Below, in pieces: positions 2,558 to 15,929 of a DNA stretch of 18,416 nt. Origin of the DNA: Deltaproteobacteria bacterium RIFOXYA12_FULL_61_11 (GTDB lineage Bacteria; Bdellovibrionota_F; JAHFAK01; YA12-FULL-61-11); the NCBI GenBank assembly GCA_001799195.1, contig MGSU01000033.1:1-18416 (forward strand). The letters are read 5' to 3'. The position numbers and the translations under genes are program-made. The number at the start of each line of letters is the position of its first letter. The stretch's first letter is position 1. Under the pieces are notes generated by a model. That model was given only the letters and a program-made list of their open reading frames with translations, made no database searches and was not told the DNA's origin.

Positions 2558-2602
2558 CCGACGACGTTGCTGGTCCAGCTCCACCCCCCCTACAAAAACC
2601 TA

Positions 2603-2635
2603 TCGAAAAACTGAGTCTCTCGTCGAAAAATTGAG
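2603..2635. repeat. 13-bp direct repeat pair upstream of the wzz-like gene
   Basis: TCGAAAAACTGAG (2603-2615) and TCGAAAAATTGAG (2623-2635) differ at one base and are offset by exactly 20 bp, about two helical turns. They sit in an AT-rich patch in the 200-bp gap between the transferase gene and the likely start of the chain-length gene. This is the usual geometry of a tandem regulator site. No convincing -35/-10 pair was found beside it, so a regulatory role is inference. Confidence 0.4.
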
Positions 2636-2757
2636 GTTCCTGCTCCGAGCCTGCAGCCCCACGGCCTTCGAGGAATCTCTTGGTCGTCATTTCGAGTGAC
2701 AACGCGAGCGAACTAGGCTACGGTGCTGGCTTCAATGGAAGGAGCCTCCGGCACCTC

Positions 2758-4047
2758 ATGAGCCTGGGCGCGACGAACATGCAACCCGCGGCACGACCGA
2801 GCAAAACCGAGGACACCGAGTTCGACCTCTTCGATGCCCTGCGCTTCCTCGTGGCCTGGCGCCACCTGATTGCTCTGGGCGCCTTGCTCGGCCTGCTCGG
2901 GGCCTGCGGCTACCTCCTCCTCGCCGACCGGCTCTATTCCTCGCAGCTCAGCTTCTTCCCGATCAGCCCGGAGGACAAGTCCTCCATGGGCAGGGCCATG
3001 CTCGACATGCTGCCTCTTGCCCAGACCACCCAGACCCAACGAACGAGCACCTTCATTCTCACCATCCTCGAGAGCCGCCAACTCTCCGAGCGGGTCATCG
3101 AGAAGCTCGGCCTCTTGCCAGAACTGTTTCCCGAGCGCTGGGACGGTAAACGCCAGAGTTGGAAGGAGAGGACCTGGTATGGAGCAACGTTGAAGCCCCC
3201 AACTCCGACCGCCGGGGCGAGCAGACTCCTGCGGGATGCGTTGAAGATCGAGGACAAAGAAGGTCTGATGTCGGTCGAAATCCTCTGGCCCCGGCCAGAG
3301 CGCTGCCCCGAGCTCGCCGAGGAGTACCTGCGCCAACTCCAGGCCTTCCTGCTGCAGGGCGAACTGACAACGATCAAACGCCAACGCCGCTTTATCGAGC
3401 GCCGGCTGGAGAGTCTCAGCAGAGAAATCAAAGAGATAGAAGAAACCCTCATCATTTTTTCCGAGGGATCCACCTCCATCGAGATCAGCGAAGCTTCCTT
3501 GGACCTGATCTCTCGTTCCTCCCAGCTCCTGGCAGACCTCTCCGGGATCGCCATTGAGTTGAAGGTTCTGCAAGGGCTCTATGGGGCCAAGCAGGACCAC
3601 GCCGGCCTCGCCGCCTACGAACAGCGGATCGAAGCCCTTCGGGCCGAATTGGCCGAACAGGGAGGCAAACTCGACGATGTGACCGGGACCGAGCGGAAGA
3701 TCATCGTCCCGCTCACCAAGGTGCCGCTCTTGTCCCTGGAATACCAACGCCAGAAACAGGACCTCCAGCTCCTGCGCAACCTCTTCATTTCCCTAAGGAA
3801 CGAGTTGGCCTTGGCCCAGATCAACGAGGCCAAGGAAGAGGTCACCTTCCAGGTCCTCGACCCGCCCCTGCCCGGCGCCCAGGTCACCCCGGTGCCCTTG
3901 CGCGATCTGGTGCTCGGCCTGCTCTTCGGCCTGGTGTTCGGCCTAGCCACGACCCTGACCCTGCGCTTCCTGGCCGAGTTCCTCGACCGCCCCTGGTGCC
4001 GGGCCGAGTTCTGGCAGAGCACCCTGACCCTGCGTCGCCGGAACTGA
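2758..4047 (+). CDS. Wzz-like polysaccharide co-polymerase (chain-length determinant)
   Basis: This inner-membrane protein probably sets the polymer chain length made by a Wzy-type polymerase. It has the family layout: a short cytoplasmic N-terminus, TM1 (IALGALLGLLGACGYLLLA), a large periplasmic region with charged helices likely to form coiled coils (around KRQRRFIERRLESLSREIKEIEE), a proline-rich segment (DPPLPGAQVTPVP) just before TM2 (LVLGLLFGLVFGLATTLTL), and a short basic tail. There is no C-terminal tyrosine-kinase domain, so it resembles Wzz rather than the fused Wzc type. The start is uncertain. The frame is open back to a TTG at 2680 with GAGGAA upstream. The ATG at 2758 (AAGGAG at 2739-2744) and the ATG at 2779 both give an N-terminus of more usual length. 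The stop lies six bases before the next gene, so the two are probably co-translated. Confidence 0.85.
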   Translation: MSLGATNMQPAARPSKTEDTEFDLFDALRFLVAWRHLIALGALLGLLGACGYLLLADRLYSSQLSFFPISPEDKSSMGRAMLDMLPLAQTTQTQRTSTFILTILESRQLSERVIEKLGLLPELFPERWDGKRQSWKERTWYGATLKPPTPTAGASRLLRDALKIEDKEGLMSVEILWPRPERCPELAEEYLRQLQAFLLQGELTTIKRQRRFIERRLESLSREIKEIEETLIIFSEGSTSIEISEASLDLISRSSQLLADLSGIAIELKVLQGLYGAKQDHAGLAAYEQRIEALRAELAEQGGKLDDVTGTERKIIVPLTKVPLLSLEYQRQKQDLQLLRNLFISLRNELALAQINEAKEEVTFQVLDPPLPGAQVTPVPLRDLVLGLLFGLVFGLATTLTLRFLAEFLDRPWCRAEFWQSTLTLRRRN

Positions 4048-4053
4048 ACCGCC

Positions 4054-5448
4054 GTGGGCTGGTGGTGGCTACTCCTCCTGTTCCTCCCGGCCTCCCTGTT
4101 CCTGGCGAACCGCCTCTCCAAGCATCTCGGGCTACTCTTGGCCCTGTTCCTGACCAGCTACTTCCTTGAGGGCGGAGGCGCCCTGCCCATCAACCTCACC
4201 TTGCTCTTCCTCCTGCTCGCGGTCTTCGCCTTCCACCGCCGGCAGTATCGCAAAGGGCGCTACCCCCTACAACGACCGGGTTGGGGGGAGGCAGCCCTGC
4301 TGCTCTTCACCGCCTTCTACCTATGCACGAGCTTATGGGCCGACAGCACCGGCTCGGCCTTGTTCAAAGCCGGCCGCATGGCCGTCACCGTGATCCTCCC
4401 CTATTGTCTGATCCGCTTCGGGCGTCTCGAACAGCAAGAGGTATCCTCGTTCCTGCAAGCCACCCTTCTGATCCTCTGGCTCAACGCCATGATCACGGTC
4501 GGGGGCTTTCTGCTCCAGACGAGCCTGCCAGGCACTCGTTTCACCTTGTTCTCCATCAATCCGATCGGTCAATCCATGGTCATGATCGTCGGAGCCGGGC
4601 TCTTTGCCACAGCCCTGCGTTATGGGAAAACCCTCGAGCAGAGTCCATGGCTGCATTCCCGACCAGTCCTCCTCACCGGGCTCCTCGGTTGTCTCCTGGC
4701 ACTCTTGTCCTCCGGCTCCCGTGGTCCCTTGGCCGCCCTCTTCGCCGTGGTGGCCCTGCGCTTCCTGTTGAATCTGCGCCGATCCCCCCTCCGCGTGCTC
4801 GGCACCACGGTCCTGGTCGGCCTGATCCTCGGGTTAGTCTGGGGGTTGTGGCAGGATGCTCTGATGGAGCGTTTCTTCGTGTTCGAACGCTTCAAGGATT
4901 TCGACCCCAAAACTCTCCTCGAGTTGCAGAAGACCGTCGATACCAATGTTCTGATGGCCAATTCGACGGCTGTGCGGTTCTATATTTATGCCGCTAATTT
5001 CAACCTCTTCCTCGAATATCCCCTGTTCGGTGCCGGAGCGGCGGCGAGTTTGGCAGCGACCTTCTACAAGACCTATCCCCACAATATGATCCTCGAGCTC
5101 CTGGCCGAGAGCGGCGTGGTCGGCCTCGGCCTCTTCCTGATCTTCTGGTGGTGGTGGAGACAGGAGCTCGGTCGCCGGTTGCGCGAGGAGCCAGACGAAG
5201 ACCTTGCCGGCCTGCGCCGGGGTCTGGCCTTCACCGTGCTGGCCCTGCTCCTGGCCAAGCAGTTCAGCTACGATATGACCATGCACAAAGACATTTTCAT
5301 CCTTGCCGCCTTGGCAGTGGCCAAGTGGCGGTCCGAGGAAACCGTAGGTCATCAGAGAAGAGATACCACCTCAATGCTTCGTGATGCCGACGCGGGGCCC
5401 CAACCTGAAAACGCGATATCGAAACGAGATACCACGATTCTCGGGTAG
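4054..5448 (+). CDS. O-antigen ligase/polymerase family protein (Wzy_C domain)
   Basis: This polytopic inner-membrane protein either polymerises repeat units (Wzy) or ligates the glycan to its acceptor (WaaL); sequence alone does not decide between them. It has about ten or more hydrophobic helices. Family features are SSGSRGP near 219-225, an Arg in the large periplasmic loop (STAVRFY, R308), YPLFGAGAA near 322-330, and YPHNMILELLAESGVVGLG near 341-359, which matches the HNxxLExxxExG signature. It starts with GTG, six bases after the upstream stop, which suggests coupling to the wzz-like gene; the pairing with a chain-length regulator slightly favours polymerase. The last 35 or so residues, after KWRSEE, are hydrophilic and look unlike the rest. 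Confidence 0.88.
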   Translation: MGWWWLLLLFLPASLFLANRLSKHLGLLLALFLTSYFLEGGGALPINLTLLFLLLAVFAFHRRQYRKGRYPLQRPGWGEAALLLFTAFYLCTSLWADSTGSALFKAGRMAVTVILPYCLIRFGRLEQQEVSSFLQATLLILWLNAMITVGGFLLQTSLPGTRFTLFSINPIGQSMVMIVGAGLFATALRYGKTLEQSPWLHSRPVLLTGLLGCLLALLSSGSRGPLAALFAVVALRFLLNLRRSPLRVLGTTVLVGLILGLVWGLWQDALMERFFVFERFKDFDPKTLLELQKTVDTNVLMANSTAVRFYIYAANFNLFLEYPLFGAGAAASLAATFYKTYPHNMILELLAESGVVGLGLFLIFWWWWRQELGRRLREEPDEDLAGLRRGLAFTVLALLLAKQFSYDMTMHKDIFILAALAVAKWRSEETVGHQRRDTTSMLRDADAGPQPENAISKRDTTILG

Positions 5449-5474
5449 CGTGCTCCGTAGATTTGGGTGGTCCG

Positions 5475-6692
5475 CTAGCGCGCTGGCTCTTTCCTCCACC
5501 GAGCCACCACTTCTTGGTAAGCGTTGATCGCCAGTTCGGCGGAGGTATCCCAGTTGAAACTCGTCAGGACCTTTTGAAGTCCTTTTGCTCCCATAGACTT
5601 GCGTCGAGGTTCGCTCTCGAGCATGCGGTCTATCGCCAGGGCCAATTGGTCAGGCGCATCCGGTTCAATGAGAATCCCACAGGTCTCATCAATCTGATGG
5701 GGAATCCCCCCTACACGTGTCGAGATGACCGGTAGACCGGAGATCATGGCCTCGAGAATGACCAGGGGAAACGTATCGGCCCGGGACGGGAAGAGAAAAC
5801 AATCTGCGAGTTGATAGAGCGCTCGAGCATGGTCCTTGTCGAGGAAGTCGGTGAAAACGTACCGATGTTCGGTGGGGTCCAAGGCACATTGTCGTAAGAG
5901 TGCCTGGTGTTCTTCAGGAGACCGTATCCTCCCCCCGATGACCACGGTGAAGTGGGATCTCGTGTATTTCAAAGAGGATAGAAGGGTATCGATCCCTTTG
6001 TTATAGGTGTGGTTCCCCATGAACAGCAGTATTGGTGCGGTCCTGTCGAGGCCAAAACGAAGAGCCACTTCCTCCAGGACCCGCGGTGGAGTCCTATCTT
6101 GGTAGAAAGGGTCAAAACCATTAGGAATACAATACGATCTCGGCTTCTTCCCCAGGTATTCTTCCAGCATCGGTTGTTCAGGCGGTGACAAGAGAAAGAA
6201 CGCGGCAGCGTTCCGGAGCGTGGCAGAAAAGGGAGCGTTAACGAAATAGTCCAGCGCAAGTGACTTTAACTTGCCGATATTGAAGGATTTTTTATAGTCA
6301 AAGAGTTCGACGAAGCCATGGGAGGTGATGACATAGGGTATTCCCAAGCGCACACACGTCTTCGCAATGTTCCACAGCTCCAGTGGAGGTACTGGGTTGT
6401 GGAGATGCACGAGGTCAGGTCGAGCGGCGTGGAGATACTCGGCAAGATCGGTGGTCCAAAGCGAGGTGCGAAGTTGTTTGGGTGCGAATTGTTTGAAGAC
6501 ACCGAGAGTATTCCGGCATTTGAACCGTCGAATGGTGAGATCCCCAACCGTTTCCGTGGTGTCCTCTTCGGCCATGATCGCTAGGTCGAGGGGTATGCGC
6601 CTCGCGATCGCATGGGAGAGCATGGTCGCTGCGCTCACCGCTCCGCTCGCGCTATAGACCGGTGGTGTGATGATCACCGCAAGGACGTTCAT
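5475..6692 (-). CDS. Glycosyltransferase family 4 (GT-B)
   Basis: This probable cytoplasmic retaining glycosyltransferase adds a sugar to the growing lipid-linked repeat unit; donor and acceptor are unknown. The 405-residue length is typical. GT4 features are the N-terminal MNVLAVIITPPVYSASGAVS strand-loop, DLVHLHNP (93-100), TSHGFVEL, the linker IPNGFDP (189-195), the donor-domain start ILLFMGNHTYNKG, and the donor motif SRADTFPLVILEAMISGLPV. In the last, the usual EX7E pair appears as D306 and E314. It is the last gene of the - strand operon. Its ATG overlaps the stop of the upstream SDR gene as ATGA (6689-6692), so the pair is translationally coupled. It converges on the ligase gene with only 26 bp between them and no clear terminator. 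Confidence 0.92.
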   Translation of the reverse strand: MNVLAVIITPPVYSASGAVSAATMLSHAIARRIPLDLAIMAEEDTTETVGDLTIRRFKCRNTLGVFKQFAPKQLRTSLWTTDLAEYLHAARPDLVHLHNPVPPLELWNIAKTCVRLGIPYVITSHGFVELFDYKKSFNIGKLKSLALDYFVNAPFSATLRNAAAFFLLSPPEQPMLEEYLGKKPRSYCIPNGFDPFYQDRTPPRVLEEVALRFGLDRTAPILLFMGNHTYNKGIDTLLSSLKYTRSHFTVVIGGRIRSPEEHQALLRQCALDPTEHRYVFTDFLDKDHARALYQLADCFLFPSRADTFPLVILEAMISGLPVISTRVGGIPHQIDETCGILIEPDAPDQLALAIDRMLESEPRRKSMGAKGLQKVLTSFNWDTSAELAINAYQEVVARWRKEPAR

Positions 6693-7639
6693 GCGGATTC
6701 CAAAGACGGAGGCAACTCATCGTCCTGCCAGGTATCGAGCAGTGTTCGGTGAATAGGGTATTGAGGGGTCCACCCGGTTTCGGCACGAAACCTCTCCATT
6801 GACGCCAAGAGAATCGGGTTATCTACAGGGCGGAGTTTCGAGGGATCTTGCGTGATGGAGAAATCGATCGCCGTGACCTGCCGCACGAATTGGAGGATCT
6901 CGCTGATACTATGGGTTTGACCTGAACCAAGATTGACGACGGGACCATCCGGATAATCCTTGAAGGAATGCTCCCCCACGTGCAGGAGTCCGGCTGCCGC
7001 ATCCCGGACATCGATGAAATCCCTCTTTGACTCGAGGTTTCCTAGCTGCAAGTTGGTACGGCCCTTCTTCAATTGGGCAATGATCTCTGGCAAGATGTGA
7101 GGATTGGTCTCGCCGGGACCAATGACGTTAAAAAGCCTAACGATCGTGGTCTCAAGCCCCCTGCGTTGTTGGAAGAGACGAGTGTAGTTTTCTCCATGCA
7201 ATTTCGTCCAACCGTACACGTCCACTGGACCTGTGGCACTGATCCCCTCACACAGAGCTTGCGTCGATGGTGCATAGACGGCCGCTGAAGATACAAAGAT
7301 GAACTTCGTCTTCAGAGGCAGTGCATCCAACAGGTTGACCGTCGACAGGAGGTTGGTACTCAGGGCGAGTTCGGGCTTCTGCTCGCACAAGGGGATGAAG
7401 TGAATTGCTGAAAGATGGAAGATGATATCCGGAAGAACCTCTGCGAGTAGCGATCGCACTGCTGCTGCGTTCCGTAGATCGACGAGATGGAAGTGGATCT
7501 TGTGGAGATCCATCTTCTTCAAGCGATATTCTCCGCAATGGAGATTGTCGGCAACGTGGACGTCATACTTCTCCTGTGCGAGGTGAACTAATTCACGTCC
7601 AACAAAGCCGCAACCACCGGTGATCAACACTCTTGTCAT
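6689..7639 (-). CDS. NAD-dependent epimerase/dehydratase (GalE-like extended SDR)
   Basis: This is probably a sugar-nucleotide epimerase or dehydratase supplying an activated sugar to the neighbouring glycosyltransferases. It has 316 residues, the Rossmann loop GGCGFVG (8-14), VSSAAVY with the catalytic Ser region at 117-118, and the YxxxK pair Y142/K146 (VYGWTK). All key residues are present. RLFNVIGPGE and the later DFIDVRDAA and VVNLGSG segments are typical of extended SDRs. I chose the ATG at 7639 because the protein then begins MTRVLITGG, the normal SDR start. The frame is open further upstream, but that 86-residue extension is not SDR-like. A 122-bp leader with a perfect hairpin separates it from the preceding gene. 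The exact substrate cannot be read from the sequence. Confidence 0.9.
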   Translation of the reverse strand: MTRVLITGGCGFVGRELVHLAQEKYDVHVADNLHCGEYRLKKMDLHKIHFHLVDLRNAAAVRSLLAEVLPDIIFHLSAIHFIPLCEQKPELALSTNLLSTVNLLDALPLKTKFIFVSSAAVYAPSTQALCEGISATGPVDVYGWTKLHGENYTRLFQQRRGLETTIVRLFNVIGPGETNPHILPEIIAQLKKGRTNLQLGNLESKRDFIDVRDAAAGLLHVGEHSFKDYPDGPVVNLGSGQTHSISEILQFVRQVTAIDFSITQDPSKLRPVDNPILLASMERFRAETGWTPQYPIHRTLLDTWQDDELPPSLESA

Positions 7640-7652
7640 TGTATTATCCCGA

Positions 7653-7675
7653 GTGACCTTGTTCGGGAAGGTCAC
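7653..7675 (-). promoter_or_regulatory. Perfect 8-bp inverted repeat just upstream of the GalE-like gene
   Basis: GTGACCTT (7653-7660), a 7-base loop, and AAGGTCAC (7668-7675) form a perfect hairpin or operator 14 bp upstream of the ATG at 7639. The half-site recurs as CGAGTGACC at 7650-7658 and 7693-7701, and as GGTCACC at 7760-7766. It could be an RNA hairpin tuning translation or a protein-binding palindrome. It has no T-run on either side, so it is not a standard terminator. Confidence 0.45.
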
Positions 7676-7761
7676 ACCTTGCCGTATCCGAGCGAGTGAC
7701 CCTCCATTCCTCCGAGGACTTTGACATCCCTCGCGGGAGAGGTCAAGGAGACTGCGTAGGG

Positions 7762-8928
7762 TCACCTGACGTTGGTATCTTCCTTGGCAATGAAAGCTGC
7801 TGTAGCTCGCGCTCCCTGTCGATGTTCGGGGGGGGTCTGTCGAAGTCTGCTGAGCGATAGCGTCTCGAGAGCATCGATCACCTTGTTTCCTCCACAACCA
7901 TTCGGCAACACTACTCCTAAGCCGAGTTCTTTGATCTCCCGCGCGGTATCGGAATCGTCAGGCCCGATGAACAACACCGGTGCCCTTGTGTAGAGGATGC
8001 CATAGAGCTTACTGGGCACCACGACACCCTCCCAACCATCTTGCATAGTAATGACATGGATCGTCGCTGCGTAGAGGAGCGCAGAGGTCAACTCCGGTGC
8101 GACGTAGTCATGCACCAGAACATTGGGCAAGGACTTCCCTTCCTTTTCGAGGTTCGTTCGTCCCTCCCCTTGGCAAAAGAAGGCGAAAACCCAGTTCTGC
8201 TCTTGTTTCTCGAGTATCATAGCAGCTTCCAGCAGATCCTTGTACGTATGCCCATGACCAAGATTGCCCGCATAGAGCACGACGCGCCTTTTCTGCCAGC
8301 CGAAATGTTGTACGAGTTCGTTCTTCTTCTTGTCGCGCGGCGAAATATTCCTATTGTCCCAAGGTGGTATGACTGTGCAGAAACCTGGTTTCCTCGACCA
8401 TTGACGATAGAGTTCGAGACGTTCCTTCTGCCGTATCCCTAAGGTAATCACCCCGGTAAGCCCCCGAAGCCCGAATTCATTGAACTGACGAAGTACAGAG
8501 TTGCAAATCCCCCTAGGAGAGATCATCCGATCCGCGACTAGCGCTTCCGGATAAAGATCCATGGTCCACCAGAAGATCCGTCGTTCGCGCCCGAGGACTT
8601 TTGCAAGCCGAGACGCGAGGATCATGAAGGGGGGATCGGTTAAAATGACGCAACGTTCCCATCTCATCAGTGGGATCAATACCACGGCTTGGATACCGAA
8701 AACCGCCCAGTTCAGGAGGCGATTGCGCGATCTACCCGTACAAACTCTTCGCACCTGCACCCGGGAAGAAAGCTGCACCTCCGCAGGATGCCGGGTGTAC
8801 TCATGATCTCCGGTCAACACCACAACTTCACAACCGAGATCGCCTAGTTCTCCAGCGACATCGGCCAACATACGTCCCGTCGGGACCTGATTGCCGCCAA
8901 AAAAACGATTGACCAGCAGCACACGCAT
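7762..8928 (-). CDS. WbuB/WcaI-like glycosyltransferase family 4
   Basis: This probable sugar transferase for the repeat unit has 388 residues. It has the WbuB-type N-terminus (MRVLLVNRFFGGNQVPTGRM), the VILTDPPF and WWTMDLYPEALV segments (124-128 DLYPE), VIPPWDN, the donor-domain entry VVLYAGNLGHGH, and WEGVVVPSKLYGIL (PSKLYG at 305-310) before PVLFIGP. In many GT4 enzymes a Glu follows the PSKLY segment; here it is Gly, which I believe also occurs in this subgroup. The start lies 13 bp downstream of the preceding SDR stop and has no clear Shine-Dalgarno, so translation probably depends on coupling. The donor sugar cannot be inferred; WbuB-like enzymes often transfer amino or deoxy sugars. 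Confidence 0.87.
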   Translation of the reverse strand: MRVLLVNRFFGGNQVPTGRMLADVAGELGDLGCEVVVLTGDHEYTRHPAEVQLSSRVQVRRVCTGRSRNRLLNWAVFGIQAVVLIPLMRWERCVILTDPPFMILASRLAKVLGRERRIFWWTMDLYPEALVADRMISPRGICNSVLRQFNEFGLRGLTGVITLGIRQKERLELYRQWSRKPGFCTVIPPWDNRNISPRDKKKNELVQHFGWQKRRVVLYAGNLGHGHTYKDLLEAAMILEKQEQNWVFAFFCQGEGRTNLEKEGKSLPNVLVHDYVAPELTSALLYAATIHVITMQDGWEGVVVPSKLYGILYTRAPVLFIGPDDSDTAREIKELGLGVVLPNGCGGNKVIDALETLSLSRLRQTPPEHRQGARATAAFIAKEDTNVR

Positions 8929-8941
8929 GGATGGTTGCTAC

Positions 8942-9988
8942 TCAGATGCGTTTCTTCCAAGCATCCACTATCTGTTGGAATATCTCATCCAGGTTCACGC
9001 TGATATCCCAACTCGGATAATGTTGTCGCATCTTGGAGAGATCACTGTAATAACAGATGTGATCCCCAATGCGATTCTGCTCGACATACTGCCATTGCAT
9101 CTTTTTCTCGACCAAGCGCTCCGACCTTTCGAATGCTTCCAGAATCGAGCAGGTGTTCTCCTTTCCACCGCCGATGTTGTAGACCTCTCCGGACCTCGGC
9201 GCCTCGAGGAACGCATGAATGAACCTCGCCACGTCCAGGCTGTGGATATTGTCCCGAACCTGTTTGGCTTTGTACCCGAACACCTTGTAGGTACGCCCCT
9301 CAAAATTACAGCGCACCAGGTAACTCAAGAAGCCATGGAGTTCGACCCCCGAATGTGCTGGCCCCGTCAGGCATCCACCCCGCAAGCAGCAGGTTTTCAT
9401 CCCGAAATACCTACCGTACTCCTGGACCATCACATCTGCGGCAACCTTACTGGCTCCAAAGAGCGAATGCTTGGATTGGTCAATACTGAAATCCTCGGCA
9501 ATACCGTTACAATACTTGGGATCGCAGTAATCCCAACGTGTTTCCAGCTCTCTGAGGGCGATGTCGTTTGGTGCATCGCCATAGACTTTGTTCGTGGACA
9601 TGAAAACGAACGGAGCTTCGAGGACATGACGACGGGTAGCTTCGAGGAGATTGAGTGTGCCCACGGCATTGGTGTCGAAATCGTCGAAGGGTATACTGGC
9701 TGCTCGGTCATGACTGGGTTGGGCAGCGGTATGAACAATTGCGTCTGGGTGGAGTTTACGCAGAAGTTGGTCGATACCCTCTCGATCGCGGATATCCAAC
9801 TCATGATGGGTAAAATTCTTGAGAATTCCCTCGAGCCGCTGTTGGTTCCAACGGGTATCCCCTTGAGGGCCGAAGAATATCGCTCGTTGATTGTTGTCAA
9901 TACCGTGTATTTCCCATCCTAACGTGTCGAAGTAAGCACACACTTCCGAGCCGATCAGGCCACTTGATCCGGTAACGAGAAGCTTCAT
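8942..9988 (-). CDS. CDP-paratose 2-epimerase-like SDR with Phe in the YxxxK position
   Basis: This is the first gene of the - strand operon, a 348-residue extended SDR that acts on a nucleotide sugar. The Rossmann loop is GSSGLIG (7-13). STNKVYGD (131-138), [56 protein letters not shown] and RIGDH are the segments I associate with CDP-paratose/tyvelose epimerases and close relatives. The catalytic Tyr is replaced: the segment reads SLFGASK, giving F177 and K181, and the codon is TTT. This may define a subfamily with a different reaction. The ATG at 9988 is chosen because AGGAGAG lies five to six bases upstream; an in-frame ATG at 10003 lies before that site. I do not claim the CDP-paratose substrate. 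Confidence 0.85.
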
Positions 9989-10017
9989 TCCCTCTCTCCT
10001 CATTTTTGCTCCAAAAG

Positions 10018-10040
10018 GGGATCCTATCGCGATCGATCCC
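10018..10040. promoter_or_regulatory. Imperfect palindrome in the leader of the - strand operon
   Basis: GGGATC (10018-10023) and GATCCC (10035-10040) flank an 11-bp centre containing TCGCGA. The element lies between the -10 candidate and the start codon of the paratose-epimerase-like gene, where a repressor could act. GATC-rich palindromes can arise by chance in such sequence, so confidence is low. Confidence 0.22.
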
Positions 10041-10070
10041 TCGCAGGCGTCTTCTATGCAAGGGGCGAAA

Positions 10071-10099
10071 AGAATAGCACCGCCCCCCCGTGGACGCAA
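10071..10099 (-). promoter_or_regulatory. Candidate sigma70-type promoter for the - strand glycan operon
   Basis: Read on the - strand, TTGCGT (10099-10094), a 17-bp spacer and TATTCT (10076-10071) match the -35/-10 pattern and sit about 80 bp upstream of the ATG at 9988. The region is the 270-bp gap between divergent genes. No equally good promoter was found for the + strand gene at 10259. Confidence 0.45.
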
Positions 10100-10258: not shown

Positions 10259-11707
10259 ATGACCAACCTCTTGCTTACCTTGTGTCCGCCCCTCCCAGTA
10301 GTGTGCCCTCCGCTAGCCATGGCGTCCTTGGCAACCTATGTCCGAACCCGAGGTTATTCGGTCTCCCTCTATGATTTGAACACCCGTATGGCGGCGAGCG
10401 CCTCGAGAGTTGGGTTGCCTGGTAGCTTCGAACTGGGCTTCTTACCGCGCGGGGTTGCGCTCCGAGAGGCCTGGGACGACCCCTATCTCGACGTCTGGTT
10501 ACCTCCCCGACTCCACCGCCTATTGCAACATTTCGAAGCCGAGATAGTCTCCCTCATCCAAGAACTACACCGGGTCCAGCCGGCAGTCGTTGGTTTCTCG
10601 ATCTATAGACACAACCTTGTCTGCACCCTCGAGATAGCCCGGCGTATCCGGGCTGTCTCAGACCGCATCACACTCATCCTCGGAGGCCCCTTCCTGCCCG
10701 GTGAGTTCCCGATCGAGATGCTCGATAGGGAGGTGGTCGACGCCTTCGTGGCCTGTGAAGGTGAACAACGTCTGGAACACATACTGGCCAGAGCGAGCAC
10801 GGGGGGGCGAGAGGCAGTACGTGAACTGACCGCGACCAACCTGATCCTAGAACAAGCTCCATTCCAAGACCTCGACAAGATCCCACCGCTCCGGTACGAC
10901 GGATTAGACCTTTCGTTCTACGAACCGGGCAAGGCCCATCTGATCACCTCACGCGGTTGTCCTCATCGGTGTAGCTTCTGTACTGATCGCCACTATCATG
11001 GACCATTTCGTTCCCATAGTATAAACAACGTCCTGGCCCAGATACAATACCTGACCGAAGAACTCGGCCGTACCAACCTGGTGATCTATGATTTGACCTT
11101 CAACGCAAACCCCAAGCGCCTCGCAGCTTTGTGCCAAGGCATCCTGGACCGGGGGTTCCAGGTCTCCTGGGATGCTCTGGTACGCGTCAATACCGCGACC
11201 ACCGCCGAACTGCTCACCCTGATGAAAAAAGCCGGCTGTCACGCTCTCATGATAGGGCTCGAGAGCGGATCTGATACGGTGTTGCGAAGAATGAACAAGG
11301 GCTTCACCGTCGCCGAGGCTCGCCACATGCTCCGGGATGCCAAACGGGCGAGAATAGAGACCAGGATCAACCTGATCGTGGGGTTTCCCGGTGAAGAAGA
11401 GTCTCATCATCTCGAGACTATTCACTTCCTCGAGACCGAACGATCCTCCCTCGATGCCATCTGCGTCCTCAGTACTTACCACCTCATGCCCAATTCCGAG
11501 GTCTGGCACTCACGGGAAACCTTGGGTTTACTCCCCGCAAAGACTCATACGTTCGCTTGGGAAGGGAAGGACGGTAACACTCTCGCAGTACGTCTCGATC
11601 GTTGCGAACACATCGTCGGTGCCTGCATGAAACTCGGCATCAGAATCGACAACTCATCATTAGGATTGATCCGGAATGCCCTTGAGAAGGAACCTTCGAC
11701 GTCCTGA
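10259..11707 (+). CDS. B12-binding-domain type radical SAM enzyme
   Basis: This 482-residue radical SAM protein has an N-terminal B12-binding-like domain (about 1-200) and a C-terminal Elp3/MiaB-like barrel. It binds a 4Fe-4S cluster and SAM through C234, C238 and C241 (SRGCPHRCSFC). LILGGPF (139-145) and the PPLAMASLATYVRTRGYSV segment are the usual Rossmann-like B12-domain landmarks; no DxHxxG cobalt-ligand motif is seen. IGLESGSDTVLRRMNKGFT and LIVGFPGEE are standard later motifs. Relatives include methyltransferases and ring- or lipid-modifying enzymes; the substrate here is unknown. The gene stands alone or leads the + strand acylation cassette, which follows after about 80 bp. TAGGAA upstream is only a weak ribosome site, with a long spacing to the ATG. 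Confidence 0.88.
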   Translation: MTNLLLTLCPPLPVVCPPLAMASLATYVRTRGYSVSLYDLNTRMAASASRVGLPGSFELGFLPRGVALREAWDDPYLDVWLPPRLHRLLQHFEAEIVSLIQELHRVQPAVVGFSIYRHNLVCTLEIARRIRAVSDRITLILGGPFLPGEFPIEMLDREVVDAFVACEGEQRLEHILARASTGGREAVRELTATNLILEQAPFQDLDKIPPLRYDGLDLSFYEPGKAHLITSRGCPHRCSFCTDRHYHGPFRSHSINNVLAQIQYLTEELGRTNLVIYDLTFNANPKRLAALCQGILDRGFQVSWDALVRVNTATTAELLTLMKKAGCHALMIGLESGSDTVLRRMNKGFTVAEARHMLRDAKRARIETRINLIVGFPGEEESHHLETIHFLETERSSLDAICVLSTYHLMPNSEVWHSRETLGLLPAKTHTFAWEGKDGNTLAVRLDRCEHIVGACMKLGIRIDNSSLGLIRNALEKEPSTS

Positions 11708-11720
11708 GAGAGACCTCCTG

Positions 11721-11792
11721 GTGAAGATGCATCTGAAACCGATCAACATCTTGCATGCAGATACCCCCGGTACCAAGGGAGGTCGGCGTTGA
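11721..11792 (+). CDS. Possible 23-codon leader ORF coupled to the SGNH gene
   Basis: A short frame runs from GTG (11721; ATG at 11727) to a TGA at 11790-11792. The TGA overlaps the TTG start of the next gene as TTGA. The peptide ends DTPGTKGGRR and resembles nothing I recognise. Its interest is the same TTGA stop-start overlap seen between the microprotein and MBOAT genes. It may be a coupling leader, or chance. Confidence 0.2.
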   Translation: MKMHLKPINILHADTPGTKGGRR

Positions 11793-12826
11793 GCCCGAGG
11801 CCCCTGCCCTGGTTCCTGGCGTCGTTGGTCCTGGGCTTCCTCGCGCTCCCCATCCTCTCGGGGGTAGCGGGTTTCCCCACGCGTGAGCAGGTCTATCGCG
11901 GTACCGACCGGCGCGAGAACCTCAGTTGGTTCGTCTATCACCACCTCTTCCGAGAGAAGTCCCCCCTCGATATCGCCATCCTCGGTTCGAGCCATCTAGC
12001 TGCCGGTCTCGATGCCCTGACCCTCGAACGTCTCTTGACCGAGCGTCTCGGACGACCGGCCACGGTGATCGTGTTGCCGGCGTTCTTCCGCGCTGTGGAC
12101 CTCCAATTCCTCCTGCTCGAGGACCTGCTCCGGCAGAGGCGGGTCCGCATGGTCGTGGTCGACCCGGGCACCGATACTCAGGTCAACCCCAACCCTCACC
12201 TCTACCGCATCCTGCAATGGGGACATCCCGCAGAGGTCTGGGGCAGCCTCCCCGCCGGCGAGTACTTGCGTTGGTATGCGCTGACCTGCTACAGCACGCC
12301 ACGCCAACTCCTGGCAGCCCTCTTTCCTCGACCGATTCTTCCCCCCGAAGCACGCTACACGGCGCGGAACGGCAGCACGTTCGATGCCCAGACCCCTCTC
12401 CCCGATTGGTTGCTGCGAAGAGCATCGGCCGGTCGAGCATCCCTCGAGGAGGTGAGCTATCCCCCCGAGCGCTATAACGAGTTGTACTTTGCGCCCATCC
12501 TCAGCTCCTATCAACACTTCTTCTTGCGCCACTTCATCGAACTGGCGGTTCGGAACGAAACTGTGCCCGTAGTAGTACGCTTTCCTTTCCTGGAGCGGGC
12601 CAGAGAACGCGAACTGACCCTCCCGGAGGGCTTGCGTTCGACGTTGAGCGAAGCCCGGGTCACCGTGCTCGGCATTACCCCGGCAGCTCTCTTCGAGGGT
12701 CTGGACGATCGCACCGTGGCGAGCTTATATGCAGACCCGGTCCACTTCAACGCGGCCGGGAGCCATCTCCATACCGCGATCATCGCTCCGGCACTGGTGG
12801 AGGAATATGCCCGACAGTACCGCTAA
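11789..12826 (+). CDS. DltD/AlgX-like SGNH-fold O-acyl transfer partner protein
   Basis: This membrane-anchored extracytoplasmic SGNH-like protein of 345 residues probably takes an acyl group and places it on the glycan. An N-terminal hydrophobic helix (about 7-28) anchors it. AILGSSHLAAGLD contains GSSH (66-69), with Ser68 as the likely nucleophile, as in the GSS motif of DltD. ADPVHFNAAG near the end supplies the Asp316-x-x-His319 pair. Overall identity to known DltD or AlgJ/AlgX is low by eye; the call rests on these motifs, the length and the context. The start is TTG at 11789, supported by AAGGGAGG at 11775-11782. Its 3' end overlaps the microprotein gene by 20 bases, followed by the MBOAT gene, the usual partner of such proteins. 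Confidence 0.8.
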   Translation: MSPRPLPWFLASLVLGFLALPILSGVAGFPTREQVYRGTDRRENLSWFVYHHLFREKSPLDIAILGSSHLAAGLDALTLERLLTERLGRPATVIVLPAFFRAVDLQFLLLEDLLRQRRVRMVVVDPGTDTQVNPNPHLYRILQWGHPAEVWGSLPAGEYLRWYALTCYSTPRQLLAALFPRPILPPEARYTARNGSTFDAQTPLPDWLLRRASAGRASLEEVSYPPERYNELYFAPILSSYQHFFLRHFIELAVRNETVPVVVRFPFLERARERELTLPEGLRSTLSEARVTVLGITPAALFEGLDDRTVASLYADPVHFNAAGSHLHTAIIAPALVEEYARQYR

Positions 12827-12935
12827 CTCTCTGCTCCGCTGGATACTCTTCTTGCTCTTCGCGGCAGCCGTGGGTCTGTTCTTTCTGATCCCGGGGCATT
12901 CCCTGGAGTTGCAACTCGTGTACAAGGCTTTTTGA
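12807..12935 (+). CDS. DltX-like single-pass microprotein with a C-terminal acyl-shuttle motif
   Basis: This 42-residue protein has a short N-terminus with Arg11, one hydrophobic helix (about 12-28) and a C-terminal tail. By the positive-inside rule the tail faces the periplasm. It ends exactly in LVYKAF (37-42), which fits the aromatic/hydrophobic-x-Tyr-x-x-Phe hexapeptide at the end of DltX (FIYNEF-like). In the Dlt pathway the MBOAT loads the acyl group on that Tyr and passes it to the Ser of DltD. Here the Tyr would be Tyr39. GGAGG lies four to five bases before the ATG, inside the SGNH gene. The stop overlaps the MBOAT TTG start as TTGA. The position between SGNH and MBOAT genes, the ribosome site, the topology and the terminal motif all support a real gene. 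Function is inferred. Confidence 0.8.
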   Translation: MPDSTANSLLRWILFLLFAAAVGLFFLIPGHSLELQLVYKAF

Positions 12936-14155
12936 ACGTGTTTGAACCCAGCGTCCTCCTGATCCTGATCCTGTATGTCGCGCTCGCCGCTCTCGCCGTA
13001 CGCGCCTTCCAAGGCTCCGTGCAGGATATCCTTCTAGCCGCGGTCAATGCTCTCGGGCTGGGCCTCTTGTTGCCCTGGGCAGAAGGATCTGTCTACCTGA
13101 TCGTCTACGGGCTCTTCCTCCTCGCCTTCTGGAGCACACTCTCCAAGGTGGGTCGATCCGACGCCGCGTATTTCCTCACGATCTCCCTCCCCTTGGCCAT
13201 GCTCTGCTGCGTGAAATATTTCGGAACAGAGCTGGTAGGGATCCTCGAGCATGGCTCGAGCGTCGAGCAACGAACTCCACCCTTCGCCGTGATGATCGGC
13301 CTCTCATTCATGGTCTTCCGGCTGATCAAGCTCGCCGTAGCTGTCAGGAACCACAGGATCGAGCCTCCGACTGCCGCGCACTTCTTCGCCTTCACCTGCT
13401 TCCTGCCGACCTTACCGGTTGGTCCGATCGGTGAGCTTGCGAGGTTCTCCCTCAGCAAGGCCGCGGCAAGCCATGCTGCGATCCCCTGGGGCCTCGCCGC
13501 AGAACGCATCCTCGTGGGCGCGGTGAAATACTTTTTCCTCGGCACCATCTTGCAACTCGTGACCTTCGAGGGGCTCCTCTTCGACGGCAACGGTCATGCC
13601 CCGGTCGAGATTTTCGTCGCCGGAGCCGGCTATTACCTCTATATCTATTGTAATTTCTCTGGTTTCTGCGACATGGCGATCGGCGTTAGCGCGCTCATCG
13701 GTATCGAGGTCGAGGAGAACTTCGACCGACCCTTCACCGCCCGTAACCTCAGCGAATTGTGGAGGCGTTGGCATATCACCCTGGGCACCTTCATGTCCGA
13801 AATGATCTTCATGCCCTTGGCGCATTGGTTAGGACCGAGAATAGGGCGTCGCCTCCTCCCCCTCACCGTGTCGGTGGCCGTAGTGGTGACCTTTCTCCTC
13901 TTGGGTCTCTGGCACGGCGCAACATGGAACTTTGTCGCCTTTGGGGTCCTGCAGAGCATCGGGGTGCTGGCCAGTTACCATTGGGGCAACCTTCTGCGCA
14001 GCACCTTGGGAGTACAGGGCTATGCGCGGTACCTGCGGCACCGAGGCGTCCTCTGGTCCGGCAGGGTCTTGACCTTCGCTTACATGGCCTGCAGTTGCAT
14101 CGTCTTCGCCAATGACCCCGCTCACCTCGCGAGACTGGGATCTATGTTTCCCTGA
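12932..14155 (+). CDS. MBOAT family membrane-bound O-acyltransferase (DltB/AlgI-like)
   Basis: This polytopic inner-membrane enzyme probably moves an acyl group from a cytoplasmic thioester carrier across the membrane to modify a surface glycan. Family motifs are YIYCNFSGFCDMAIG (237-251), ENFDRPFTARNLSELWRRWH with H281, and LGLWHGATWNF with the catalytic His328. At 407 residues it is DltB-sized, shorter than AlgI-type proteins, and ends LGSMFP with no shuttle motif. That fits the motif being on the separate microprotein upstream. The TTG at 12932 overlaps the microprotein stop; a GTG at 12938 is the alternative start. The last 34 bases overlap the convergent radical SAM gene. No adenylation (DltA-like) gene is visible in the window. 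Confidence 0.92.
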   Translation: MNVFEPSVLLILILYVALAALAVRAFQGSVQDILLAAVNALGLGLLLPWAEGSVYLIVYGLFLLAFWSTLSKVGRSDAAYFLTISLPLAMLCCVKYFGTELVGILEHGSSVEQRTPPFAVMIGLSFMVFRLIKLAVAVRNHRIEPPTAAHFFAFTCFLPTLPVGPIGELARFSLSKAAASHAAIPWGLAAERILVGAVKYFFLGTILQLVTFEGLLFDGNGHAPVEIFVAGAGYYLYIYCNFSGFCDMAIGVSALIGIEVEENFDRPFTARNLSELWRRWHITLGTFMSEMIFMPLAHWLGPRIGRRLLPLTVSVAVVVTFLLLGLWHGATWNFVAFGVLQSIGVLASYHWGNLLRSTLGVQGYARYLRHRGVLWSGRVLTFAYMACSCIVFANDPAHLARLGSMFP

Positions 14156-15675
14156 GCAGCGCCGACCTGCCCGGTTCGGCCGAGCCCGAAGGGCTTTAAG
14201 AAGAGGCGCGCGACGCGCGGAGTAGAGCCGAAGAAGGTAGCGTACTTCATGACCAGTTCTTCGTCTGTGAAGTACTTCCGCTGGACCGCGAGCATGGCCG
14301 AGGTCCTGGCGAAATCTTTGAAGGCGAGGGCCACACGGGTTCGGGCTTCCTGGAGCAGCGCGGTGGGCAAGAAGTTGCACTCCGCCCTGATGCACTCCTG
14401 GGTCCCCAGGGGTACCCTCACGTGTCTCCTGAGGAACTCCTCGCTGTAGCCCAGAGACCCTGCCAGACGATACATGGCACTGCCCGGGTAGGCGCGTACG
14501 ATGCCGATATAGGGGAAGTGGATGGAGTCGATCAGGCGGAGGATCATGGCCACCGTCGCGGACAGTTCCCCCGGGGTCTCGCTCGGGAACCCGATCATGA
14601 AAAAACCGTTCACGATGAGCCCTCGCTCCCGGGTCGCCTCGATGGCAGCCTCGACCTTCTCGAGGTCGAGCTTCTTCTTGATCATGCGCTGAATGCGGGG
14701 ACTGGCGGATTCGATGGCATAGACCACCTCTACGGTACCGGCCTCGACGAGCAGGTCCAGGAATTCCTCGTCCAGACGATCACCTCGCAACCCGTTGGGG
14801 AAGAATAATCTCACCTTGAAAGGGAGGGAGCAGATGCCGGCCAGGACCTCTTTGGCATGATCGAGCTGGAAGTTGAAGATATCATCGATGATGAGGAAGT
14901 CGCGAAGGCCGAAGCGGTCGTACAAGGACCTGATCTCGGCAAGGATGTTGCCGGGTGAACGGTGTCGGAAGTTCTTGCCGAACAGGGAATGGCAATAGAT
15001 GCAGCGGTACGGGCACCCGCGGGAGGTGAGCAAGAGGGCATAGCGACGCTGGATCGAGGTCAGGGCGTGGAAGGAGGCATAGCGATCGAGATCGATGTCG
15101 CCGTAATCGGGGAAGGGCATGGCATCGAGGTCGGCGATCTGGGGCCGCAGCGCGGTTTTGCGGCAAGGTGGGCAACCTGCTTCCTGCGAGCGATAGTACA
15201 GACCTGCGACGGCCCGGAAATCTCGCGACCCGGGCGAGTCCAACAACGCAGCGATAAGCTCGCGGAGGACGTATTCCCCTTCGGCGGGACAAACAAGGTC
15301 GACATTGAGATCTTCCAGGATCTGAGCGGGGGCATCCCCGGCATAGGGCCCTCCTGCCACGACCAGGATGGCTGGATTGTGGGCCTTGGCCAGGCGAGCG
15401 AGCTCGTGGAGTTGACGATACGTGCTGGAGAGCGAGCGCAGGCCGACGAGGTCGGGGTTGTGCTCGGCCAGGAGGTCGGCGACCGCGGCGAAGTTCCCGC
15501 ACTGGATCGCCGCATCACAGACCACGACCGAGAGGGTGTCGGCTGAGAAACACGAACGCACATAACTGGCCAGCAACATGAGACCCAGCGGGGGATGGAC
15601 CATGTTGTGAGCAACGCCGAGTCCAACCTCGCTGAAATCGGTAGCCGCATCAATGAGCAGGACCTTCAGCGGCAT
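14122..15675 (-). CDS. B12-binding-domain type radical SAM enzyme (second copy)
   Basis: This 517-residue protein has an N-terminal B12-binding-like domain (about 1-145; PPLGLMLLASYVRS, ILVVAGGPYAGDAP and CPAEGEYVL are landmarks). A radical SAM barrel follows, with C221, C225 and C228 (SRGCPYRCIYC) as cluster ligands, then IESASPRIQRMIKK and FFMIGFPSETPGE. The C-terminal extension of about 120 residues is unassigned. No DxHxxG cobalamin ligand motif is seen. Chemistry is unknown; relatives carry out methylations and unusual C-C or ring modifications. The ATG at 15675 is chosen because MPLKVLLIDAA is the normal B12-domain start; it lies five bases after the acyl carrier stop, so the two are very likely one operon. 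This suggests, without proof, action on a carrier-bound group or on its acceptor. Confidence 0.88.
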   Translation of the reverse strand: MPLKVLLIDAATDFSEVGLGVAHNMVHPPLGLMLLASYVRSCFSADTLSVVVCDAAIQCGNFAAVADLLAEHNPDLVGLRSLSSTYRQLHELARLAKAHNPAILVVAGGPYAGDAPAQILEDLNVDLVCPAEGEYVLRELIAALLDSPGSRDFRAVAGLYYRSQEAGCPPCRKTALRPQIADLDAMPFPDYGDIDLDRYASFHALTSIQRRYALLLTSRGCPYRCIYCHSLFGKNFRHRSPGNILAEIRSLYDRFGLRDFLIIDDIFNFQLDHAKEVLAGICSLPFKVRLFFPNGLRGDRLDEEFLDLLVEAGTVEVVYAIESASPRIQRMIKKKLDLEKVEAAIEATRERGLIVNGFFMIGFPSETPGELSATVAMILRLIDSIHFPYIGIVRAYPGSAMYRLAGSLGYSEEFLRRHVRVPLGTQECIRAECNFLPTALLQEARTRVALAFKDFARTSAMLAVQRKYFTDEELVMKYATFFGSTPRVARLFLKPFGLGRTGQVGAAQGNIDPSLAR

Positions 15676-15680
15676 GGAGT

Positions 15681-15929
15681 TCAGCGCTCGCTCGCCGTAT
15701 GGTGGGCGATGAGGTCCACGAGGTCGCCGACGTTCTTGGTCAGTTCGATCTCCCCCGTCGCGAAGCGAACACCGAAGGCCAACTCGACGTAGAGAATCAA
15801 GGTGACGTGGAGCAGGGAGTCCCATTCCTCGACTTCGTGGGCCGTCAGGTCGGGGCGCACGACGATCTTCTCCAGGAAGACCTGGTCGAAGACGTCTTGC
15901 AGTCGGCGGAGAATCTCGTCGTTTTGCAT
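15681..15929 (-). CDS. Acyl carrier protein (DltC-like role proposed)
   Basis: This small 82-residue acidic carrier has a phosphopantetheine site at Ser38 in EEWDSLLHVTLI. The helical pattern is normal for the fold: N-terminal helix DEILRRLQDVFDQVF, the DSL motif, then ELAFGVRF and KNVGDLVDLI. It presumably holds an acyl or aminoacyl group as a thioester. The ATG at 15929 has GAGGGGG about eight bases upstream, and a plausible promoter lies just before. It is followed directly by the second radical SAM gene. The MBOAT gene is about 1.5 kb away on the opposite strand, so a DltC-like role in that relay is an inference from proximity. It lacks the length and context of the fatty-acid-synthesis ACP. 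Confidence 0.88.
   Translation of the reverse strand: MQNDEILRRLQDVFDQVFLEKIVVRPDLTAHEVEEWDSLLHVTLILYVELAFGVRFATGEIELTKNVGDLVDLIAHHTASER

Follow-up and report, generated by a model that had tools for sequence, protein, structure and literature searches.

A putative stand-alone acyl shuttle, distinct from DltX, in an MBOAT–SGNH locus of a polysaccharide gene neighbourhood

The window, i.e. the whole 18,416-nucleotide stretch of DNA analyzed here, is contig C33 of an isolated genome (G000; 4.64 Mb, 87% complete). It contains a three-gene unit encoding an SGNH-type protein, a 42-residue microprotein and an MBOAT acyltransferase. Judging from sequence comparison and gene context, the microprotein is very probably the stand-alone acyl shuttle of an MBOAT–SGNH envelope-acylation system. 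The combination of a free-standing shuttle with an MBOAT that lacks the shuttle motif, in the absence of a Dlt ligase and carrier and recurring across lineages, appears to be new: no description of a stand-alone shuttle outside Dlt was found in the literature searched, most subscription papers lying outside that search.

The microprotein gene, its partners and its surroundings

Table 1. Positions of the features discussed in the text, numbered from the first nucleotide of the window
Feature	Position	Strand	Remarks
Surface-polysaccharide neighbourhood	98–10099	.	Pfam: sugar-phosphate transferase/epimerase fusion, Wzz-like protein, glycosyltransferases, sugar epimerases
O-antigen ligase/polymerase (Wzy_C)	within 98–10099	.	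Pfam
SGNH-type protein	11789–12826	+	345 aa, N-terminal membrane anchor; GSS and DxxH motifs
SGNH Ser68	codon 11990–11992	+	in GSS
SGNH His319	codon 12743–12745	+	in DxxH (DPVH)
GGAGG, possible ribosome binding site	12799–12803	+	3-nt spacer to the ATG; within the SGNH coding sequence
Microprotein ORF, proposed acyl shuttle	12807–12935	+	42 aa, single helix, MPDSTANSLLRWILFLLFAAAVGLFFLIPGHSLELQLVYKAF, Tyr39
C-terminal hexapeptide LVYKAF, proposed acyl-carrying motif	12915–12932	+	Tyr39 codon 12921–12923
MBOAT acyltransferase	12932–14155	+	407 aa, DltB-sized, without C-terminal motif; Pfam MBOAT
MBOAT His328, predicted catalytic His	codon 13913–13915	+	in LWHGATW

The microprotein ORF spans the entire gap between the SGNH and MBOAT genes, and its coordinates, its translation, its single helix and its LVYKAF ending are as given in the first-pass annotation. 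That annotation had the ORF overlapping both neighbours: the overlap with the SGNH gene is real (20 nt), but the one with the MBOAT gene exists only if the MBOAT starts at the TTG at 12932, the in-frame GTG at 12938 leaving a 2-nt gap instead. Likewise, the GGAGG sequence taken as the gene's own ribosome binding site is present but is weak evidence, because its spacer is only 3 nt long and because the site also encodes SGNH residues. Outside the SGNH overlap, the GC content of the ORF at the three codon positions is 0.60/0.31/0.74, which is coding-like and resembles that of the flanking genes, and six random codons of the same composition would match the motif with a probability of about 1.3e-4. 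As in DltX, there is one hydrophobic stretch (residues 12–28, mean KD 2.79); the charge bias from which its orientation (N-terminus inside in DltX) would be read is weak. The hexapeptide keeps the Tyr and the final Phe of F-x-Y-x-x-F, the first Phe being replaced by Leu in both copies of the microprotein gene found in this genome.

The MBOAT was correctly described as DltB-sized and devoid of the shuttle motif at its C-terminus, which reads LGSMFP; most fused relatives, in which the motif ends the MBOAT itself, are longer (about 450–530 aa). It scores 57.1 bits against PF03062, for a cut-off of 27. Its best PDB match is the solved DltB (6bug), with which its profile aligns with an E value of 5.6e-35, placing His328 in register with the His of the DltB WHG motif. 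An AlphaFold model built from two MBOAT sequences was unusable (pLDDT 38). The SGNH protein, which matches no Pfam family at E ≤ 0.01, displays the motifs of the SGNH superfamily, namely block I (G66-S67-S68) and block V (D316-x-x-H319), the block V His being invariant in nine aligned SGNH partners. Its AlphaFold model is weak (pLDDT 60); the fold matches of this model are PatB (7tlv) and a GDSL lipase (3p94), both with a probability of 0.99, and DltD (6pfx; 0.69), none reaching E ≤ 0.001. The positions initially assigned to the MBOAT His and the SGNH Ser were confirmed.

Inside the polysaccharide locus, the trio is flanked by genes for two B12-binding radical SAM proteins (10259–11707, + strand, and 14122–15825, − strand). 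The polysaccharide genes that surround it (Table 1) point to a surface polysaccharide as the probable acceptor of the acyl group. The locus had been assigned to a Gram-negative-type surface, a point on which the genome is divided: there are three matches to the Omp85 family, but neither LpxC nor LptD was found in this 87%-complete genome, which would fit an outer membrane that lacks classical LPS, or else an assembly gap.

Split and fused systems in this genome and in others

Contig C75 of the same genome harbors a paralogous trio, whose MBOAT and SGNH proteins are 38–39% and 39% identical, respectively, to those of the window. Between the two genes lies again a 42-aa ORF (MKPGIIAWILGLCAMVLCLVSLYAFSTIPERSLDFGLVYRRF), ending in LVYRRF. 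BLASTP returned no match between the two microproteins, and a position-wise comparison was used in its place: 12 of the 42 residues are identical without gaps, with a clustering at the C-terminal end (IP..SL...LVY..F), and over the last 22 positions only one of 20,000 shuffles was as good. The other two MBOATs of the genome carry a fused motif (FIYFQF and FIYIQF), so that one genome contains both the split and the fused arrangements. Beyond this genome, relatives of the window trio were not encountered: the two window-type MBOATs, when used to scan 84,980 named genomes, retrieved none, an SGNH profile search of 386 genomes gave matches in this genome only, and one other genome of the same phylum had no match to the trio. 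No close relative of the window ORF was found outside its genome, and dS is saturated between the two copies; selection on it may nevertheless be argued from the residues that are conserved.

Two contigs of this genome associate MBOATs with acyl-carrier genes. The paralogous trio of C75 (L035) faces, tail to tail, two + strand genes, one for an FkbH-domain protein (54–1085; 267 bits against TIGR01686) and one for an acyl-carrier protein (about 1092–1336). Further along, the contig encodes a thiolase, an acyl-CoA dehydrogenase and a protein in which a B12-dependent mutase is fused to MeaB. The donor there could conceivably be a carrier-bound glyceryl or hydroxyacyl group. On the − strand of C30 (L036; 4664–4915 and 4925–6526), the fused MBOAT ending in FIYIQF is directly followed by an 83-aa acyl-carrier protein and is possibly a carrier-fed fused MBOAT, contrary to the view that Dlt alone uses a carrier.

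In loci from diverse genomes, nearly all the MBOATs surveyed end exactly in the motif. In a first survey, none of the 269 small same-strand ORFs near 45 fused-motif MBOATs carried the motif, whereas all nine complete motif-less non-Dlt MBOATs had a motif microprotein beside or near them. Seven of these nine were found by an automatic rule and two by inspection, one microprotein (G181 C125, TIYATF) being hidden in a longer reading frame and the other (G140, FRYMHF) lying past the SGNH gene; compared with 0/45 for the fused loci, Fisher's test gives p = 2e-7 for 7/9 and p = 1.9e-10 for 9/9. Searches in two classes gave further examples, and a second scan of named genomes yielded, among the matches listed, mostly fused systems and two split ones. 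In Candidatus Chisholmbacteria (JACOWY010000003.1), the SGNH, MBOAT and microprotein (...FIYVDF) genes overlap head to tail, and the Actinomycetota contig PLTW01000158.1 also shows the split layout. Altogether, at least 23 split systems are present in at least 17 genomes. Thus, the free-standing shuttle put forward in the first-pass annotation gains support but is no one-off, split systems being spread over at least six class-level lineages. The microprotein gene may even lie on the opposite strand (G181 C71). For three motif-less MBOATs (G181 C28/L107, G386 C85/L109 and G387 C26/L110), no nearby microprotein was found; their shuttle is perhaps encoded elsewhere, or they use another tail. These exceptions weaken the rule that a microprotein adjoins every motif-less MBOAT.

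All the microproteins examined have one hydrophobic stretch, which ends 8–18 residues ahead of the Tyr (12 in true DltX). When 11 of them, including true DltX, were aligned, no residue but the Tyr proved invariant, and the final Phe nearly so. In the G205 class, five genomes have the SGNH, microprotein and MBOAT genes in the window's order, with an unchanged tail (...LLFSGDLSASKFIYVDF), and pairwise dN values for the microprotein range from 0.08 to 0.18 for dS values of 0.75 to saturation, G393, one of these genomes, having an unclear start codon. The microprotein of this class is under strong purifying selection.

In most other split MBOATs, the WRRWH motif is followed by a GGNR-type loop that is missing from the window MBOAT and from DltB; this loop was rejected as a marker of split systems. 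A match of one microprotein to the Pfam domain Salyut (E 0.017), a plant-virus domain, was dismissed as chance. The idea that a split shuttle implies a carrier-protein donor was rejected as a rule, since the fused C30 MBOAT adjoins an acyl-carrier gene and since many split loci have no carrier in view. Carrier-bound donors are nonetheless possible in some split systems because of the FkbH and carrier genes of C75 and of the ligase-carrier of G119. In the latter genome (C171, L075; 874–4856), an AMP-ligase with a C-terminal carrier domain, an SGNH protein, a motif-less MBOAT and a 45-aa microprotein (FVYLNL) are encoded in a Dlt-like layout, in which ligase and carrier are fused and the trio comes after the ligase.

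Proposed relay and alternative explanations

In all likelihood, the window trio works like DltB–DltX–DltD and like the fused PatA tail while being neither a Dlt system nor a fused MBOAT. The relay would involve (i) uptake on the cytoplasmic side, by the MBOAT through its His328, of the acyl group of an activated donor; (ii) its deposition by the MBOAT on Tyr39, in the extracytoplasmic tail of the microprotein; (iii) the swinging of the tail bearing acyl-Tyr39 over to the SGNH protein; (iv) acceptance of the acyl group by SGNH Ser68 and its transfer to a hydroxyl of the surface glycan that the neighbouring genes would produce. Here we infer expression, complex formation and acyl-Tyr chemistry, as well as the identity of the acyl group, its donor (CoA or a carrier protein) and its acceptor. 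The core of the relay initially suggested, Dlt-like with a separate shuttle, is well supported by the paralogous trio, by the split/fused pattern and by selection on homologous microproteins, but the system is not Dlt itself.

Indeed, the trio shares the three-part anatomy of Dlt, and one might suppose that it is a true D-alanylation system whose DltA and DltC are encoded elsewhere in the genome, an explanation that we regard as improbable. The only named family matched by the MBOAT is the NCBIfam DltB family (TIGR04091), and solved DltB is its closest structure in the PDB. However, the score of 152 bits is far below the cut-off of 375 and, as one of the genome's fused MBOATs reaches 149 bits too, reflects general kinship only. 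Neither the window microprotein nor its paralogue matches the Pfam DltX family (PF12459) at E ≤ 10, whereas Limosilactobacillus oris DltX scored 72.5 bits in the same run; none of the microproteins tested across split systems matches this family either. Pfam scans revealed no DltA or DltC in the window, and in the genome the best matches are 177.9 bits for DltA (cut-off 559.85) and 28 bits for DltC (cut-off 52.35), although their absence from an 87%-complete genome is no proof. Finally, the MBOAT tree, in which branches are long, groups neither the window MBOAT nor that of C75 with the two true DltBs. Judged by these sequence comparisons, the window trio is not the Dlt system itself.

It could also be argued that the microprotein is a structural membrane subunit needed for assembly or stability, the acyl group passing from the MBOAT to the SGNH protein directly or via another protein. 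An acyl-Tyr has been demonstrated in no split system outside Dlt, and the three motif-less MBOATs devoid of a neighboring microprotein would fit such a role. Yet a structural role accounts poorly for the Tyr being the sole invariant residue of very diverged microproteins, with the terminal Phe coming next, and for the motif residing on the microprotein just when the MBOAT lacks it; we give this possibility little credence. As for a chance ORF, or a frameshift artefact that cut the tail off a fused MBOAT, three things speak for it: the shortness of the ORF, the poor spacing of its ribosome site and its lack of a database family. But a frameshift cannot have produced an ORF that lies upstream of the MBOAT gene, and chance would hardly place an ORF of the same length at the same place in a trio only 38–39% identical, maintain the same order under purifying selection in five genomes of another class, or give a coding-like GC distribution over codon positions. 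Largely refuted by the second copy, this last explanation is very unlikely. A stand-alone acyl shuttle is the reading that we retain.

Significance and relation to known systems

Experiments have established the acyl-Tyr mechanism in Dlt and in PatA/PatB (PMC12148441). According to the same 2025 paper, MBOAT/SGNH pathways outside Dlt have no DltX-like microprotein, the motif being carried by the MBOAT (PMC12148441), a statement that the split loci contradict. They define a third arrangement, with no adjoining Dlt ligase or carrier, a motif-less MBOAT and a separate shuttle. In practice, wherever a DltB-sized MBOAT ends without Y-x-x-F, a nearby microprotein gene is worth seeking, and reconstitution or deletion studies of split systems that leave out the microprotein would miss a required part. 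The variety of split and fused forms is also a natural experiment, from which one may learn what features are important in the tail and how the shuttle came to be joined to the enzyme or separated from it. In the MBOAT tree, 46 of 48 fused MBOATs form one group nested among split lineages; this tree, with its long branches and arbitrary root, suggests that the fused form may derive from the split one. A bolder and tentative proposal is that split microproteins are general and perhaps older, occurring in many phyla and mostly unannotated, that the fused tail came later, and that the donor of window-type systems, of which the C75 copy adjoins FkbH and acyl-carrier genes, may be a carrier-bound hydroxyacyl group (e.g. 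glyceryl) rather than acetyl-CoA.

A DltX-like protein in a Gram-negative is not new in itself, because Dlt operons are known in a few Gram-negatives (PMC5541007). The window microprotein resembles DltX (PF12459) in its size (about 40–50 aa for the family), in its one predicted helix, in its C-terminal hexapeptide with an invariant Tyr and in its partners, an MBOAT and an SGNH protein, whose Dlt counterparts are DltB and DltD; the DltX encoded by an L. oris plasmid has exactly the same length, 42 aa. Note that this true dltX (CP014788.1, L081; 1798–1926), which ends in FIYNEF and overlaps the annotated dltA start, is itself unannotated. Unlike DltX, the window microprotein has a motif that starts with Leu instead of Phe, does not match PF12459, and is encoded between the SGNH and MBOAT genes, whereas the DltX gene precedes dltA; moreover, the window locus lacks DltA and DltC and is a polysaccharide locus, in contrast to the teichoic acid context of Dlt. 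With PatA/PatB, AlgI and WssH, the window system shares the MBOAT catalytic His, an SGNH protein, a presumed action on an envelope polymer and a C-terminal motif akin to F-x-Y-x-x-F. In the PatA/AlgI type, however, the motif is borne by extra helices at the C-terminus of the MBOAT whereas it lies here on a separate protein, and identity with the fused type fails because the window MBOAT has no motif. The closest counterparts in layout are the other split systems (the G205 class; the class of G181, G036 and G315; G119; G140; Chisholmbacteria; Actinomycetota), in which genes for an SGNH protein, a motif-less MBOAT and a separate motif microprotein are clustered; their MBOATs are about 30% identical to that of the window where compared, and their gene order varies, that of the G205 class being the same as in the window.
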